Shown: positions 2,574 to 40,233 of the stretch, one piece after another
How positions within the stretch are numbered: position 1 is the stretch's first letter
How the letters are laid out: each line of letters begins with the position of its first letter
NCBI GenBank assembly: GCA_002007295.1
Contig: LNZM01000022.1
Coordinates: forward strand, 1 to 40,233
Source of the DNA: Candidatus Epulonipiscioides saccharophilum
GTDB lineage: Bacteria > Bacillota > Clostridia > Lachnospirales > Cellulosilyticaceae
DNA: 40,233 nucleotides
Direction of reading: 5' to 3'
Made by a program: the position numbers and the translations under genes
The notes under the pieces: generated by a model
Database searches by the model: none
What the model saw: the letters and a program-made list of their open reading frames with translations, nothing else
Told to the model about the DNA's origin: nothing

Positions 2574-2910
2574 TGATTCCTCCCCTTTATTAATAATTTT
2601 TCGTATATAATGATACTACATATCAACAAGACAAGTCAATAATTTTTGAAAAATTTTCCAAATATTTTTACAACTTTAACTTATACTTACTCTATATTTA
2701 CAGCTTCTAGTTTCTAGCTTTTGGCTCGCATCCTTTTAATCTCATAGGCGGGAACTTAAGAATCTTTCGGCGAAGCTAACTAATGGTGCAGACAACCTAC
2801 TCCCATTCCAGCGAAGCTGACTGAGGGGTTCTTCTGGAGTAGTTACTCCGTAATCACCTTCTATTTTCTTAAATTCCCATGTATGCCTTTTAATCTACAC
2901 TTCTAGTTTC

Positions 2911-3206
2911 TAGCTTTTGGATCGCATCTTTATTTCCAAAATCAATAACTCGTTGTAGTCAATATTTTAATTGATCCATATCTTTTTCTACCCCGATTCC
3001 TTCTTCATAACATTCTGCTGCCTTTTAAAACTTATATTCACTCTGTACTTATACTCTCTAGCTTTTGGATCGCATCTTTATTTCCAAAATCAATAACTCG
3101 TTGTAGTCAATATTTTAATTGATTCATATCTTTTTCTACCCCGATTCCTTCTTCATAACATTCTGCTGCCTTTTAAAACTTATATTCACTCTGTACTTAT
3201 ACTTTC
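2911..3206 (-). repeat. Two 148-bp tandem copies (2911-3058, 3059-3206) derived from the 3' end of the adjacent Sel1 gene
   Basis: tagcttttggatcgcatc...ttcataacattctgctgcc recurs at 2911, 3059 and inside the gene at 3207, exactly 148 bp apart. Confidence 0.93.
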
Positions 3207-4112
3207 TAGCTTTTGGATCGCATCCTTATTTCCAAAATCAACAGCTCGTTGTAGCCAATATTTTAATTGCTGTATATCTTTTTCTACCCCAATTCCTTCT
3301 TCATAACATTCCGCTACCTTTAAAAATGCATTGCCAAAATTATGTTCTGTTGCTTTCATATACCAATTAAATGCTTGCTCCAAATTTTGTTCTACTCCAT
3401 ATCCATTCTGATAACATTGTGCTACATCCATTTGTGCGCTATAATATCCTTGTTTGGCTGCCCTTTTGTACCAAATAAACGCTTGTTTTGGATTTACCCT
3501 TGTATTCTGTCCATCTTTATAGTATGTCCCTAATTGATACTGCGACCTATTATGTCCTTGCGTTGCTGCTGCTTTTAACCACTCAAAGGCTAAGTCCTCA
3601 TCTTTTTCAACGCCCCATCCTAGTAGATAACATCTAGAGATTTCATACTGAGATTGCGCATCACCTTGCAAGGCGGCCTTATAATACCATCTATAAAAAT
3701 CCTTCTTGTTAAAGTTTTGTTTAGCTTGTTCAGCTAAAAGAAGCTGGGCCGGCAAATATCCTAATTCTGCAGACATATTATATAATGCTTGCACTTCATT
3801 TGTATCTCCCTTTTCATCATGTTCATTAGCTAATTCAAACATACGTTTTGCTTTGAAATTAAATAATTTCGGATATTTTTGCAAGTTTTCATAAAATGAA
3901 TCATCTTCTCCCTCATATACATATACTATATCTTTATCTTGCATATATATTTGCAGTTCTTTGGTTAAGCCTTTCCAGTCTTCTTCGAATAAAAACCATT
4001 TAGATATATCGTTAGAATTTATAAACATAATAATTCTAATAGACTCTATAGGTTTGTTGTTAACATATATTGTTACAGACGATACATTATAATTAATTGT
4101 TACAAATAACAT
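3186..4112 (-). CDS. Sel1-like (SLR/TPR) repeat protein with unique N-terminal domain
   Basis: Repeated A..G...AQ..L...Y..G.GV..D...A..W...A motifs; likely start MLFVTINYN at 4112 after GGGAGG, inside ORF 3186..4163. Confidence 0.88.
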   Translation of the reverse strand: MLFVTINYNVSSVTIYVNNKPIESIRIIMFINSNDISKWFLFEEDWKGLTKELQIYMQDKDIVYVYEGEDDSFYENLQKYPKLFNFKAKRMFELANEHDEKGDTNEVQALYNMSAELGYLPAQLLLAEQAKQNFNKKDFYRWYYKAALQGDAQSQYEISRCYLLGWGVEKDEDLAFEWLKAAATQGHNRSQYQLGTYYKDGQNTRVNPKQAFIWYKRAAKQGYYSAQMDVAQCYQNGYGVEQNLEQAFNWYMKATEHNFGNAFLKVAECYEEGIGVEKDIQQLKYWLQRAVDFGNKDAIQKLESISTE

Positions 4113-4266
4113 AAAAGCCTCCCTTATTTTATTTTTATAACTAATATATGTAAGACCTCGCAAAAAAAAAACAACTTAATTTTTTTATTCTTTACTGTAA
4201 CTTTAAAACTTGTATGTGTATATTATAAATATAGTATAAATTGAATTATTAGGAGGAGGATTATAC

Positions 4267-9113: not shown

Positions 9114-11369
9114 TCAATTATTTTTTATTAATTCTATATCATGTTGACCGGCCGGCAATTTCTCTACCTGTTTTCCATCTACTTTGATAACGTCGAATCC
9201 ATCCCAAGTCAATAAAGTATCTTTAGTTGCGAAGTAGGATCCTTTAGAGTTTGCTACGAATATACTTAATGATTTATCCGCTGTGAAGTGTATATCATGG
9301 TTAGCAAATTCGGTTGTATTTTCTACAAAAACCCATTTTGTCTCTTCGGCCTTTTTTCTAAATACAGCGCTTTCGCCGTCAAAGGTTATGTGCTCGCCAG
9401 TTTCTAGATCAATTTCTTTCGGTCCTTCTTCTATGCTGTTGAATATATAATCGTACGTTCCGGATGCAAATCTTAATTTTCCGACCTCTAACCCTTTTTC
9501 TTCGTATTTGCTAAAGGCTGGCCCCCAATGTAATATATCTGAAGGAACTAGAAGGGTGGCTAAATTAATGTTTTTGTCTGAATCGGATTTATACTTTGGA
9601 ATTAGAACTTCTAAATCTACCTTATTATTGCCACTACTAAATGCTGCGCCTTTTGTTATCTCTACCGAATCCGGTTCTGATATCAAAAAATAGGACAAGT
9701 ATACATTATGATTGCTAAGTCTATTTATCGTATATGTATAATGTTCATTTGGTACCACTACATTTCCGTTATCAGTTAGTGGTCTATGTATGACACTTGC
9801 GATATCGGTTACACTTTCGGTGGCTATATCATCAAAAATTATAAAATATCCAAATGCACCGTCACCCATTGGAACTCTGACTAAACTTCTTTCATGTTTA
9901 GCGTTCGGTATCGCTTCTCCTGAATTTGTTCTGGCATAATCTAAATTTGTATTTGTAAATCCAGACACTACTCCGCCTCCACTTTTGCTAACATGATCAT
10001 TTTCCTTGCTCGGACTTTTATAATTTTCATATTCGTAATCCACCAATACTGTATTCGCAGAAAAGGCTGAGTTATTGATGTAATCCCATGTATATCCATC
10101 TAACCCTTTAGCCCACCCATTATATCCAGAATTTATTGTTAAGTATTCTCCATAGGCCGTAATATTTACCGAATTCGTTTCTTTATGCGCATGGCCGTCT
10201 GTTCCGTCCGATGACCATAAAAAAGCAGCTAATGATTGCGGGTCTCTTATATCTTCGTAGAAAAATGCGCCGGTTTCTTCAAAGATAGCACTGGTAGGTG
10301 CCTTGGCCTCTACTTCATTTTCTTCAAACATTAAGTAGGCCAATAAATCTACCGCATTTGGTAGTCCCTGCATTCTCCATTTAATTATTTCAGCCGTTTC
10401 TTCGCTAAATAGATGTCCTAAATACGCTGTCGGATTTTCGCCAAAATAATCTTTCACTGTTGTTGATACCGAGTTGGTATCGCCTATAGCCCAAGTTAAT
10501 CTCATCGGAGTCATGGAATAGCCGGCTAGCCAATGTAGCCCTTTTGCAAATAGCTGATCTTCTTCATATAGATTCGGCCCAGTTTCAGTCTGTAGAGTTA
10601 GGTACGGTAAAATAGATTTCGAAATATTTCCAAATGATCCAAACCTCGATACAGCATAACCAGCGCCAGGATTTATTGTTCCGTCTCCATTTATATACTG
10701 CTGGACGAATTTATTATAATGATCTATCGTTTTTTCTATTTTTGTTTTATCATCTATAAATAAAGCCCAGGTGCCTCTTACTCCTACTTGAGAAATTTCA
10801 TGACCCTCTCTGTGATCCCAAAAATACTGCCCTACATCATTCATTATCTCGGTCACTTGATTAAATTCTGCTTCTGTTATGTACGGTGCTATACTATCCA
10901 AGGATACCAAGCTAGTAATGGCTAATGCTGCCGGCGGTATCGTTTGATTCCATTGTGCCCCAAAAGTTACGAAAATATTTTTAAATAAGTTGACCTCTTT
11001 TTCTTTATTAAAATACTCAATCGCTTCTAAAATATTTTTTGTATATATATCCTTGTTCGTGGGATCCGAAAAAAATAAGATCGTATTCACATTTATAATT
11101 TCTCGGAGCATATTGCATGCGTCCTTATATGTCTTCGCATTTATGCTTTCCGGATACTTCAATTCTGGCAATCGATCTTTGGCCTTTTCGGCCATATAAG
11201 ACCATGGAGCTGTCGTAGCTTTATTCTCTAACTCTTGATATTCATCGGCTTTTACTATCAATCGTGGGTGTTCACTTTGTGTTGTTGCATAACATAGTGA
11301 TCCAGTAGCTAACATTGTAGCTCCAAAAAATAAAGCTTTCACTATATTATTAATTTTTTTGCTCACCAA
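9114..11369 (-). CDS. Secreted heparinase II/III-like polysaccharide lyase
   Basis: 751 aa, signal peptide, HPRLIV start, GHAHKETNSVNITAYGEYLTINSGYNGW typical of heparinase II/III domain. Confidence 0.78.
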   Translation of the reverse strand: MVSKKINNIVKALFFGATMLATGSLCYATTQSEHPRLIVKADEYQELENKATTAPWSYMAEKAKDRLPELKYPESINAKTYKDACNMLREIINVNTILFFSDPTNKDIYTKNILEAIEYFNKEKEVNLFKNIFVTFGAQWNQTIPPAALAITSLVSLDSIAPYITEAEFNQVTEIMNDVGQYFWDHREGHEISQVGVRGTWALFIDDKTKIEKTIDHYNKFVQQYINGDGTINPGAGYAVSRFGSFGNISKSILPYLTLQTETGPNLYEEDQLFAKGLHWLAGYSMTPMRLTWAIGDTNSVSTTVKDYFGENPTAYLGHLFSEETAEIIKWRMQGLPNAVDLLAYLMFEENEVEAKAPTSAIFEETGAFFYEDIRDPQSLAAFLWSSDGTDGHAHKETNSVNITAYGEYLTINSGYNGWAKGLDGYTWDYINNSAFSANTVLVDYEYENYKSPSKENDHVSKSGGGVVSGFTNTNLDYARTNSGEAIPNAKHERSLVRVPMGDGAFGYFIIFDDIATESVTDIASVIHRPLTDNGNVVVPNEHYTYTINRLSNHNVYLSYFLISEPDSVEITKGAAFSSGNNKVDLEVLIPKYKSDSDKNINLATLLVPSDILHWGPAFSKYEEKGLEVGKLRFASGTYDYIFNSIEEGPKEIDLETGEHITFDGESAVFRKKAEETKWVFVENTTEFANHDIHFTADKSLSIFVANSKGSYFATKDTLLTWDGFDVIKVDGKQVEKLPAGQHDIELIKNN

Positions 11370-17812: not shown

Positions 17813-18517
17813 ATGTTAAAAGTTGAAAACATGAATGTATATTACGACAATATTCAGGCATTAAAAGACATAACTTTCGAAGTTGGAAAAGGTGAGATCG
17901 TAACGTTAATCGGAGCCAATGGATCCGGAAAAACTACTATACTTCAGGCTATAAGTGGTATGGTTACACCAAGATCCGGAAATATATTGTTTGCAAATCA
18001 GAGCGTAATAAATAAACCGTCTAATGAACTGTTATCATTAGGTCTTGCTCATGTACCAGAAGGTCGGCGAGTATTTTCGAAAATGACCGTAGAAGAGAAC
18101 TTAGAATTAGGGGCCTATATCATTAAAGATAAAGATCAGATAGCAGAGGACAAGAAAAAAATGTTCATACAATTCCCAAGGCTTTTTGAACGAAGAAGGC
18201 AATTAGCTGGAACGATGAGTGGTGGAGAACAGCAAATGTTAGCCATGGCTCGAGCATTGATGTCTAGGCCATCCATAATGATTATGGATGAACCGTCTAT
18301 GGGACTATCCCCCGTTTTAGTGCAAGAAATATTCAACATAATATTTGAAATTAATATGGAAGGAACCACAATTTTGTTAGTAGAACAAAATGCGAAAAAG
18401 GCTCTTCAAATAGCTAATCGAGGTTATGTACTAGAAACAGGAAAAATTGTTTTAACCGGAACTGGTAAAGCACTTTTAAAAGATGAAAATGTGAAAAAAG
18501 CTTATTTAGGTGGTTAA
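17813..18517 (+). CDS. livF: Branched-chain amino acid ABC ATP-binding protein
   Basis: GANGSGKTT, MSGGEQQMLAMARALM, IMDEPSMGL. Confidence 0.95.
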   Translation: MLKVENMNVYYDNIQALKDITFEVGKGEIVTLIGANGSGKTTILQAISGMVTPRSGNILFANQSVINKPSNELLSLGLAHVPEGRRVFSKMTVEENLELGAYIIKDKDQIAEDKKKMFIQFPRLFERRRQLAGTMSGGEQQMLAMARALMSRPSIMIMDEPSMGLSPVLVQEIFNIIFEINMEGTTILLVEQNAKKALQIANRGYVLETGKIVLTGTGKALLKDENVKKAYLGG

Positions 18518-18640
18518 GCCGAGACTTTTTTAAACGAAGTCACACATTCTCCCCCCCTACCCCCTCTCCCGGAGGGGGGTCCCACTTCCCTTGAAACTAG
18601 TGGAAACTTAAAGGCACGCTTTCTCCCTCCCGGAGTGAGG

Positions 18641-18832: not shown

Positions 18833-19474
18833 TTAGAATTTAACGCCATTTTCCATTAAAATCTTGCGTACTTCTTTAATCTCGGCCAAAGTTTCTTCTT
18901 GCGAATCTACTTCAGGTGGCAAATGCTCCGGTAAAATTTCTTCCAATTCTTTGCCAAATCTATAAACAACCATTCCAGCATGACAATCATGGCCATATCC
19001 ACAAGTATAGCATGAATTATAGGAATTAACTTGCATCTTAGCAATTGTTTTAATATTGCTAAAATTAAACGAATGTTCTATAACTCCTACTACTGGATCA
19101 TGCATATCTCTTTTATAGCAAGTTGTAATTATAACACCTAATTTATCTTTCAATGCAAAATCACTTCTATGTCTAAATGAAAAAGTTCGTTCCAAACATG
19201 CATGGGCTAGAGCATTTATGGTACCAAAATAGTTTGGAGCGCCGAAAATAATTAGGTCAGCATCTTTCATTTTTTCGCCGATTTCGTTCCAGTCATCTTT
19301 AACTTTACAAGTATTGTCTGCAGCACATGCGGTACAGGCTATACAACCTTGAATCTTTTTTCCGGCCAAAGAAATAATCTCTACATCTTCTTTGCAATCT
19401 CGCAAAAGTTCTGTTATAGCTTGATGAGTCATTCTTCCTTTTCTAGGACTTCCACTTATAGCTAATATTTTCAT
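18833..19474 (-). CDS. Flavodoxin-family NAD(P)H-dependent FMN reductase / iron-sulfur flavoprotein
   Basis: MKILAISGSPRKGRMT flavin motif; GCIACTACAADNTC; IIFGAPNYFGTINA. Confidence 0.85.
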   Translation of the reverse strand: MKILAISGSPRKGRMTHQAITELLRDCKEDVEIISLAGKKIQGCIACTACAADNTCKVKDDWNEIGEKMKDADLIIFGAPNYFGTINALAHACLERTFSFRHRSDFALKDKLGVIITTCYKRDMHDPVVGVIEHSFNFSNIKTIAKMQVNSYNSCYTCGYGHDCHAGMVVYRFGKELEEILPEHLPPEVDSQEETLAEIKEVRKILMENGVKF

Positions 19475-19499
19475 CGTTTTCCTCCAAATGTTTTTTTAT

Positions 19500-19531
19500 A
19501 GTTAAAATAACAAAAATTGTTCTACATATTT
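19500..19531. repeat. Duplicate of esterase 3' end (32 bp)
   Basis: agttaaaataacaaaaattgttctacatattt matches 19599-19630 with one mismatch. Confidence 0.92.
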
Positions 19532-19539
19532 CATTTAGG

Positions 19540-19598
19540 CGGTTAACCAAAGGCTCTCTTTTTAGAAGAGCTGTCAGCGAAGCTGACTGAGAGGTTGT
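19540..19598. repeat. REP-like hairpin element
   Basis: ggctctctttttagaagagctgtcagcgaagctgactgagaggtt: two adjacent stem-loops. Confidence 0.8.
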
Positions 19599-19600
19599 AG

Positions 19601-20386
19601 TTAAAATAATAAAAATTGTTCTACATATTTAGACCAGGATCGTTCCGAATGGGTGTCGCCGACACCAACATTAAGATCAATGTTTTCAATAGGCACGCCC
19701 AACTCCAATAACGTCCGAACATATTTTATCGTATCGTTTACATAAATTTGTGCTAACTCTAGCTCATTGGCCAAATGACCTTCTTCTGTACCGACATGGA
19801 CAAAATATTTCATATGCTTATTCGCTTTATTGGTTTTTAAATAATCTATAAATTCATTGTTTTTATACACCCACGATGCTATAGAAAAAACTCCGACTTT
19901 TACAAATTTATCCGGATATTTCGATACAATAAATGCTGTAACTAATCCGCCCATCGAACTTCCGATTATAGAGGCTTCGGCCGTCCGATATTTACTTGCT
20001 ATAAAGGGCATCAATTTTTCTACAAAAAATTCAGCATATTCGAATGCTTTTCCGCCTATCTCTTCATCACCGAATTTTATCGAACTGCTTTGCTTAAACG
20101 GTAGGTATTCTATGGCCCGTTCTTCTTCTGCATTGTCCATGGCCACTATTATATATCCTTCACTCTTTCCTTCTGCTTCTATTCTTGTTACCGTGTCTAA
20201 TACTTCCCAGCTTCCAGTTCCAAAGGGACCTGAACCATAGAATACCGCTTTGCCATCATGAAAGTATACTACTGGATATGCTTTATCATCAATGTCATAT
20301 TTATTTGGTAAATATACTCTTATCTTTCTGGTTATATTTTTTTTCAAATATGGTGTTTCTAAAATATGTTCTTCTATTTTCCACAT
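19601..20386 (-). CDS. Alpha/beta-hydrolase, esterase-D/enterochelin-esterase-like
   Basis: YPVVYFHDGKAVF, nucleophile elbow GSSMGG, terminal catalytic His candidate GDTHSERSW. Confidence 0.85.
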   Translation of the reverse strand: MWKIEEHILETPYLKKNITRKIRVYLPNKYDIDDKAYPVVYFHDGKAVFYGSGPFGTGSWEVLDTVTRIEAEGKSEGYIIVAMDNAEEERAIEYLPFKQSSSIKFGDEEIGGKAFEYAEFFVEKLMPFIASKYRTAEASIIGSSMGGLVTAFIVSKYPDKFVKVGVFSIASWVYKNNEFIDYLKTNKANKHMKYFVHVGTEEGHLANELELAQIYVNDTIKYVRTLLELGVPIENIDLNVGVGDTHSERSWSKYVEQFLLF

Positions 20387-20913: not shown

Positions 20914-21654
20914 ATGTTAAATAATAAGGTAAAAATCCAAGTTAGAAATTTACAAAAAAGTTTTGGGAAAACAGAAGTTTTAAAAGATATGAGTCTTGAT
21001 ATTCATGAAGGTGAGGTAGTCGTACTAATTGGACCTTCTGGAAGCGGAAAATCAACATTTTTAAGATGTTTAAATCACTTAGAAAGTGCTACTGGCGGAA
21101 CAGTTTTTGTAAATAATGAAGAGGTTACTAGTCGACGAACAGATATAAATCAATTAAGAGAAAAAATAGGCATGGTGTTTCAACATTTTAATTTGTTTCC
21201 ACATAAAACAGTAATCGGAAATATCACAACAGCACCCATAGATTTGAAAATTCTATCCAAAGAAGAAGCCTTTGAACGAGGAATGAGCTTATTAAAGCGA
21301 GTTGGATTAGAAACCCGAAAAGATGCTTATCCATCTCAATTATCCGGTGGCCAAAAACAACGAGTAGCTATCGCTCGAGCCTTGGCTATGAATCCTGAAA
21401 TCATGTTATTCGATGAGCCAACTAGTGCGCTGGATCCAGAAATGGTTGGTGAAGTTTTGGCCGTGATGAAAGAGTTAGTATCGGATGGGATGACTATGGT
21501 TATCGTAACTCATGAAATTGGTTTTGCCCGTGAAGTAGCTGATAGAATAGTATTTATGGATAATGGCCATATTATTGAAATAGGATCTCCCGATGAAATT
21601 TTGGATAGCCCTAAAGAACGTCGTACCATAAATTTTTTAAACAAAGTTCTTTAA
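20914..21654 (+). CDS. glnQ: Polar amino acid (glutamine-type) ABC transporter ATP-binding protein
   Basis: [53 protein letters not shown]. Confidence 0.92.
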
Positions 21655-21726
21655 CAATAAAAACCTCTCCAAGTTGGAGTAGTCCTAAATTTTAAGCAAA
21701 GTTCTTTAACAATAAAAAAACTCTCC
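21630..21726. repeat. Duplication of glnQ 3' end (about 40 bp, 21630-21670 and 21687-21726)
   Basis: gcaaagttctttaacaataaaaa...ctctcc recurs 55-57 bp downstream. Confidence 0.9.
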
Positions 21727-35221: not shown

Positions 35222-35257
35222 AAAAAAACTACCGTCTTATGTTTAACGGTAGTTTTT
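35222..35257. terminator. Bidirectional hairpin terminator
   Basis: aaaaaaactaccgt-cttatgttta-acggtagttttt. Confidence 0.8.
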
Positions 35258-35490
35258 AATCTCTTCGTCAGCTAAAGTTGGTACCTATTCAATCTCTCAG
35301 TCAGCTAAAGTTAGTACCTATTCAATCTCTCAGTTAGCTAAAATGGTACTATTCAATCTCTCAGTTAGCTAAAATGGTACTATTCAATCTCTCAGTTAGC
35401 TAAAATGGTACTATTCAATCTCTCAGTTAGCTAAAGTTGACACCTCTTAACCTCTCAGTCAACTTCGTTGACAGCTCTTCTAAAAGGAGA
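35258..35490. repeat. 31-33 bp tandem array of REP-like half-units, ending in a full REP-like element
   Basis: aatctctcagttagctaaaatggtactattc-type units at 35258, 35291, 35324, 35355, 35386, 35417, 35449. Confidence 0.95.
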
Positions 35491-35522
35491 GCCATGGCGG
35501 AGAGGCTGATCGGAGAGCCTAT

Positions 35523-40130: not shown

Positions 40131-40233
40131 ATAGTGCGACACGTTGCGATATGAAAAGTATCGTCTAAATCTTGAAATATAAGATTAAAAGAACTAATAA
40201 TCTGAACAATCGAATGATAGGGTAACGCCTTGA

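Follow-up and report, generated by a model that had tools for sequence, protein, structure and literature searches.

A duplicated esterase tail beside a REP-like palindrome, and duplicated gene tails in Candidatus Epulonipiscioides saccharophilum

In the genome of Candidatus Epulonipiscioides saccharophilum, the last codons of an esterase gene occur twice, on either side of a REP-like palindrome. The arrangement raises the question of whether insertion of the palindrome created the repeat or whether the palindrome was carried along when the end of the gene was duplicated. The window considered here is the whole of one contig (C22; LNZM01000022.1; 40,233 nucleotides) of a 3.19-Mb draft genome whose assembly is 92% complete. 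At 40189–40233, where the contig ends, a group II intron (Rfam RF02004) begins, and the contig break may therefore fall in a repeated intron.

The esterase locus and its two tails

The features of the locus are the following.

17813..18517, plus strand: ABC transporter ATPase gene, convergent neighbour; LivF-like as inferred by gene order
18833..19474, minus strand: gene for an NADPH-dependent FMN reductase-like flavoprotein (PF03358); follows the esterase gene directly on its downstream side
19496..19531, minus strand: duplicated esterase tail, copy t2; non-genic, within the flavoprotein gene's 5′ region
19532..19551, plus strand: 20-nt spacer; agrees at 14 of 16 nt with the final codons and stop of the ABC ATPase gene at 18505–18520
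19552..19596, minus strand: REP-like palindromic element, AACCTCTCAGTCAGCTTCGCTGACAGCTCTTCTAAAAAGAGAGCC; two hairpins, fold z = −2.44 on the minus strand
19595..19630, minus strand: original esterase tail, copy t1; KYVEQFLLF-stop and post-stop CTACAA
19601..20386, minus strand: esterase gene (PF00756), 261 aa, intact ORF; Pfam E 2.3e-22

The two tails form an ungapped direct repeat of 36 nt, 34 of them identical (19496–19531 and 19595–19630), with a start-to-start distance of 99 bp; their shared minus-strand sequence is AAATATGTAGAACAATTTTT(A/G)TTATTTTAACTA. A sequence-only reading had placed the copies at 19500–19531 and 19599–19630. These coordinates hold, the ungapped repeat being slightly longer, and the copy at 19599–19630 is, as that reading had it, the true end of the esterase; the duplicated part comprises its last nine codons and the stop. 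The 67 bp that it described between the copies, with a REP-like element inside, are likewise present and consist of the 20-nt spacer, the 45-bp core and 2 nt, the final two nt of t1 overlapping the core. The repeat is not a chance resemblance, because its score of 61 compares with a 99th percentile of 41 among mismatched flank pairs.

Esterase orthologs in four relatives (G002, G003, G004 and G009) end at the same C-terminal residue as the esterase here, and at these four orthologs both the second tail and the REP are absent. Identity of the esterase to the relatives compared is 65–70%, and the esterase–flavoprotein junction is kept in none of them.

Gene tails across the genome and empty sites in a congener

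The survey of tails took in ORFs that were 150 codons or longer and were followed by 60 bp or more of non-coding DNA, and a copy was sought within 400 bp downstream; the genes came from a simple longest-ORF caller rather than a curated annotation, and part of the sample was selected for REP content. In the first set, a copy was present for 56 of 273 tails, where mismatched pairs would lead one to expect 0.5, and for 11 of 270 starts; in shuffled pairings, tail duplications were near zero. Further contigs brought the totals to 81/394 tails versus 16/387 starts (Fisher p 7e-13), and contigs taken by number, regardless of REP, gave 40/164 versus 8/157. By way of comparison, tail copies in relatives amounted to 0–5% (5/107 in G002, 2/110 in G003, 0/26 in G001, 0/60 in G009 and 0/167 in G006). 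For 15 tail-duplicated genes, the sampled genomes contain a relative whose end falls on the same residue or close to it, and the tail copy is found in none of these relatives. Two further duplicated tails lie in the window.

9012–9073 copies 9121–9182, minus strand: end of ORF 9114–11369; no REP between the copies
21635–21663 and 21690–21718, plus strand: end of the ABC gene 20914–21654; degenerate REP after the second copy

At 2889–3332 of the window, a 148-bp unit occurs three times in tandem and includes the end of ORF 3186–4163, also a duplicated tail. In the G000 sample, tail copies were more frequent between codirectional genes (61/246) than between convergent ones (14/108).

The tails belong to a larger population of local duplications, of which 161 were counted in 664 kb (24 per 100 kb, compared with 0.75 to 9.4 in five relatives). 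Near-perfect contiguous two-copy duplications have a junction overlap of about 0–4 nt, fitting illegitimate head-to-tail duplication. Contiguous short tandem tail duplications are present at L054 (period 60) and L065 (period 36), and several other spaced copies can be parsed as tandem units that later acquired indels. The closest known counterpart is the partial tandem duplication of gene 3′ ends, with which these cases share head-to-tail units of ~30–300 bp, little junction homology and the lack of a mobile element; what differs is the density, which is extraordinary here, at about one fifth of tested tails against 0–5% in relatives. Loss of mismatch repair was considered as a cause of the duplications and rejected, each of the five genomes of the genus having both MutS and MutL. 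We found no description of gene-tail duplications, or of the REP-like element in Epulopiscium, in the literature within reach of the search, which excluded most subscription papers.

For 94% of the duplications that fall within genes, the period is a multiple of three, compared with about 35% for the others, as by chance, and random placement predicts 4.5% at tails and 4.1% at heads, compared with 41 tails and 9 starts seen. The selective filter that we infer would let duplications inside genes survive only in frame, keep start duplications rare and tolerate those of tails. Since a second tail would be harmless and a second start would bring another ribosome site and start codon, we read the tail excess as the outcome of selection acting on short tandem duplications that arise at a high rate. 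It seems to us improbable that the bias is mechanistic, with an active process preferentially copying gene 3′ ends downstream and selection against duplicated starts being only part of the cause; candidate links for such a process would be, for example, the termination of transcription, or the pausing of replication in cells that contain very many copies of the chromosome.

Sites that lack the duplication could be identified in a congener. Over 42 gene pairs that are adjacent both here and in a relative, the median gap is 97.5 bp here versus 31.5 bp. At L041:14171, the gap is 196 bp versus 29 in G003, and the difference of 167 bp is close to the 165-bp tandem unit; at L061:8921, it is 223 versus 75, the difference of 148 bp equalling four periods of a 37-bp tandem repeat. 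Neither site has a REP. At L061:7440–7709, a unit of tail, REP and GGTCCGG is repeated in tandem and the REP of the first unit is truncated; the G003 counterpart has one tail and no REP, with the same terminator-like sequence behind.

Order of events at the esterase locus

The matched part at the esterase locus covers 33–36 nt of the 99-bp period, about a third, whereas in other local tandem duplications of this genome the matched length approximates the period; a later deletion or insertion is therefore needed. A second event is required also because one tandem duplication cannot yield tail–REP–tail followed by REP-free DNA, and precedents favour the loss of one REP over the later insertion of one. 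We consider it probable that the locus is a local tandem duplication in which the REP was a passenger, later lost from one unit. In the order of events that we infer, a head-to-tail duplication would have copied the esterase 3′ end, the REP-like element and the spacer behind it as a 99-bp unit; the REP and spacer would then have been deleted from the second unit, which would leave the intact esterase and a dead tail copy downstream. The REP would not have created the duplication, which would be one among many in a genome where short tandem duplications are unusually abundant. Of a REP, the sequence after t2 retains two bases at most, so that the deletion must have removed nearly all of it. The sequence-only reading had offered two accounts, insertion of the element or tandem duplication with one REP lost; only the second stands up well, its closest precedent being L061:7440–7709.

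The 36-bp tail could instead have been duplicated in tandem first, the REP and spacer being inserted later at the junction. This account explains the bases as well as the loss of one REP does, since t1 and t2 abut exactly if the REP and spacer are removed, and contiguous tail duplications of this kind occur, as at L054 and L065. Moreover, comparison with G003 shows no host duplication on either side of the L061 REP, and a REP can therefore arrive without duplicating its target. The insertion would, however, have had to strike the exact junction of two 36-bp copies, and the precedents have the REP within the duplicated unit (L061 and, in part, L046 and window position 21635). We regard this sequence of events as unlikely.

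A special case of passenger duplication followed by REP loss draws on the spacer. The spacer may derive from the stop region of the convergent ABC gene, as its 14/16 match suggests, a match that is short and was noticed post hoc. Among all 185 sampled loci, the pattern TTTAGGYGGTTAASC is found only in the spacer and in the ABC ATPase stop region, and the match ranks first of 572 gene tails on the same strand; a match of 14/16 arises by chance on the opposite strand too. The 99-bp unit would then have been a convergent junction of ABC-gene tail, REP and esterase tail, duplicated in tandem, and the flavoprotein gene would later have replaced the first REP. Spacer, REP, 2 nt and tail add up to exactly the 99-bp period, as this version would have it. 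Against it, both tails are duplicated at none of 71 sampled convergent gene pairs, and the ABC gene and the esterase are not adjacent in relatives. This version is doubtful, and we give it little weight.

REP-like copies elsewhere and the wider setting

The core of the REP-like element has at least 49 other matches in its own genome (about 50 in one search). A search of 924 kb returned 83 matches, mostly intergenic, and about 664 kb of the own genome contained 76 matches at 64 loci. The window holds one other strong copy.

35449..35493, minus strand: second strong REP-like copy; its flanking direct repeat is not above chance (L010)

An array of about six 31–33-bp units related to the REP left arm occupies 35252–35448 and adjoins this copy. 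No orientation bias of the REP relative to genes was seen (24 vs 25), and no Rfam family matched the element at 19.5 kb. The element resembles RAYT-associated REP/BIME sequences in being short, palindromic, intergenic and present in many copies, both singly and in arrays. It differs from them in that no constant GTAG/CGTC tag, of the kind named as REP-associated in the title of PMC3733652, stands next to the core, the adjoining bases varying among copies, and in that no intact Y1 transposase (RAYT) was found in the 92% complete assembly; the sole PF01797 match in the genome is partial (profile positions 80–121, in a 58-aa frame). It is also of a clostridial type and patchy across the order: at E 1e-6, the core was found in 12 of 295 genomes, most of them from one family. 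Congener copies occur only on one 12-kb contig (G003:C8, loci L037 and L038), for which recent transfer and misbinning are both possible. A second dispersed repeat, about GGCCAACAACTTAGATATTGTTCCTACTTCACTGGAG, adjoins REP copies and also lies in other intergenic gaps (L012, L023, L061:777–955 and L185:17946–18325), and accounts for the apparent direct repeat flanking the REP at L012.

To survey flanks, the two sides of each of the 64 REP loci were compared, with 1500 random 45-bp REP-free intergenic windows as the control. A direct repeat straddles 10 of the 64 loci (15.6%), compared with 15.9% of the random windows, and the repeat around the window's element is therefore what the intergenic DNA of this genome offers anyway. 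A REP in the downstream spacer goes with rarer tail duplication (odds ratio 0.35, p 0.03), the association being, if anything, weakly negative, and the palindrome does not appear to be the cause of tail duplications. The locus had been called the clearest link between REP-like elements and tail duplication; this was mistaken, tail duplications being common where there is no REP.

The survey also leads us to reject the model in which a mobile REP, on inserting, produced a 32–36 bp target-site duplication (32 bp in the sequence-only reading): the layout at the esterase locus, with direct repeats around a palindrome as in a MITE-like insertion, speaks for it when taken alone, as does an 18-nt exact repeat near the element at L005, but 54 of the 64 REP loci have no flanking direct repeat, the few repeats present vary in length (18–105 bp) and in distance from the element (0 to >100 bp), and the genome matches only a fragment of a Y1 transposase, so that we hold this origin to be highly improbable.

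Taken singly, the esterase locus is ordinary; the interesting part is the genome-wide load of duplicated gene tails. Here, about one fifth of the tested gene ends are followed by a decaying second copy of the tail, and intergenic gaps are stretched compared with those of relatives. The organism is a relative of Epulopiscium, the giant bacterium of the fish gut, and its genus is noted for giant cells with extreme polyploidy. Such a genus lends itself naturally to the question of whether a load of this kind reflects a high rate of duplication or weak selection.
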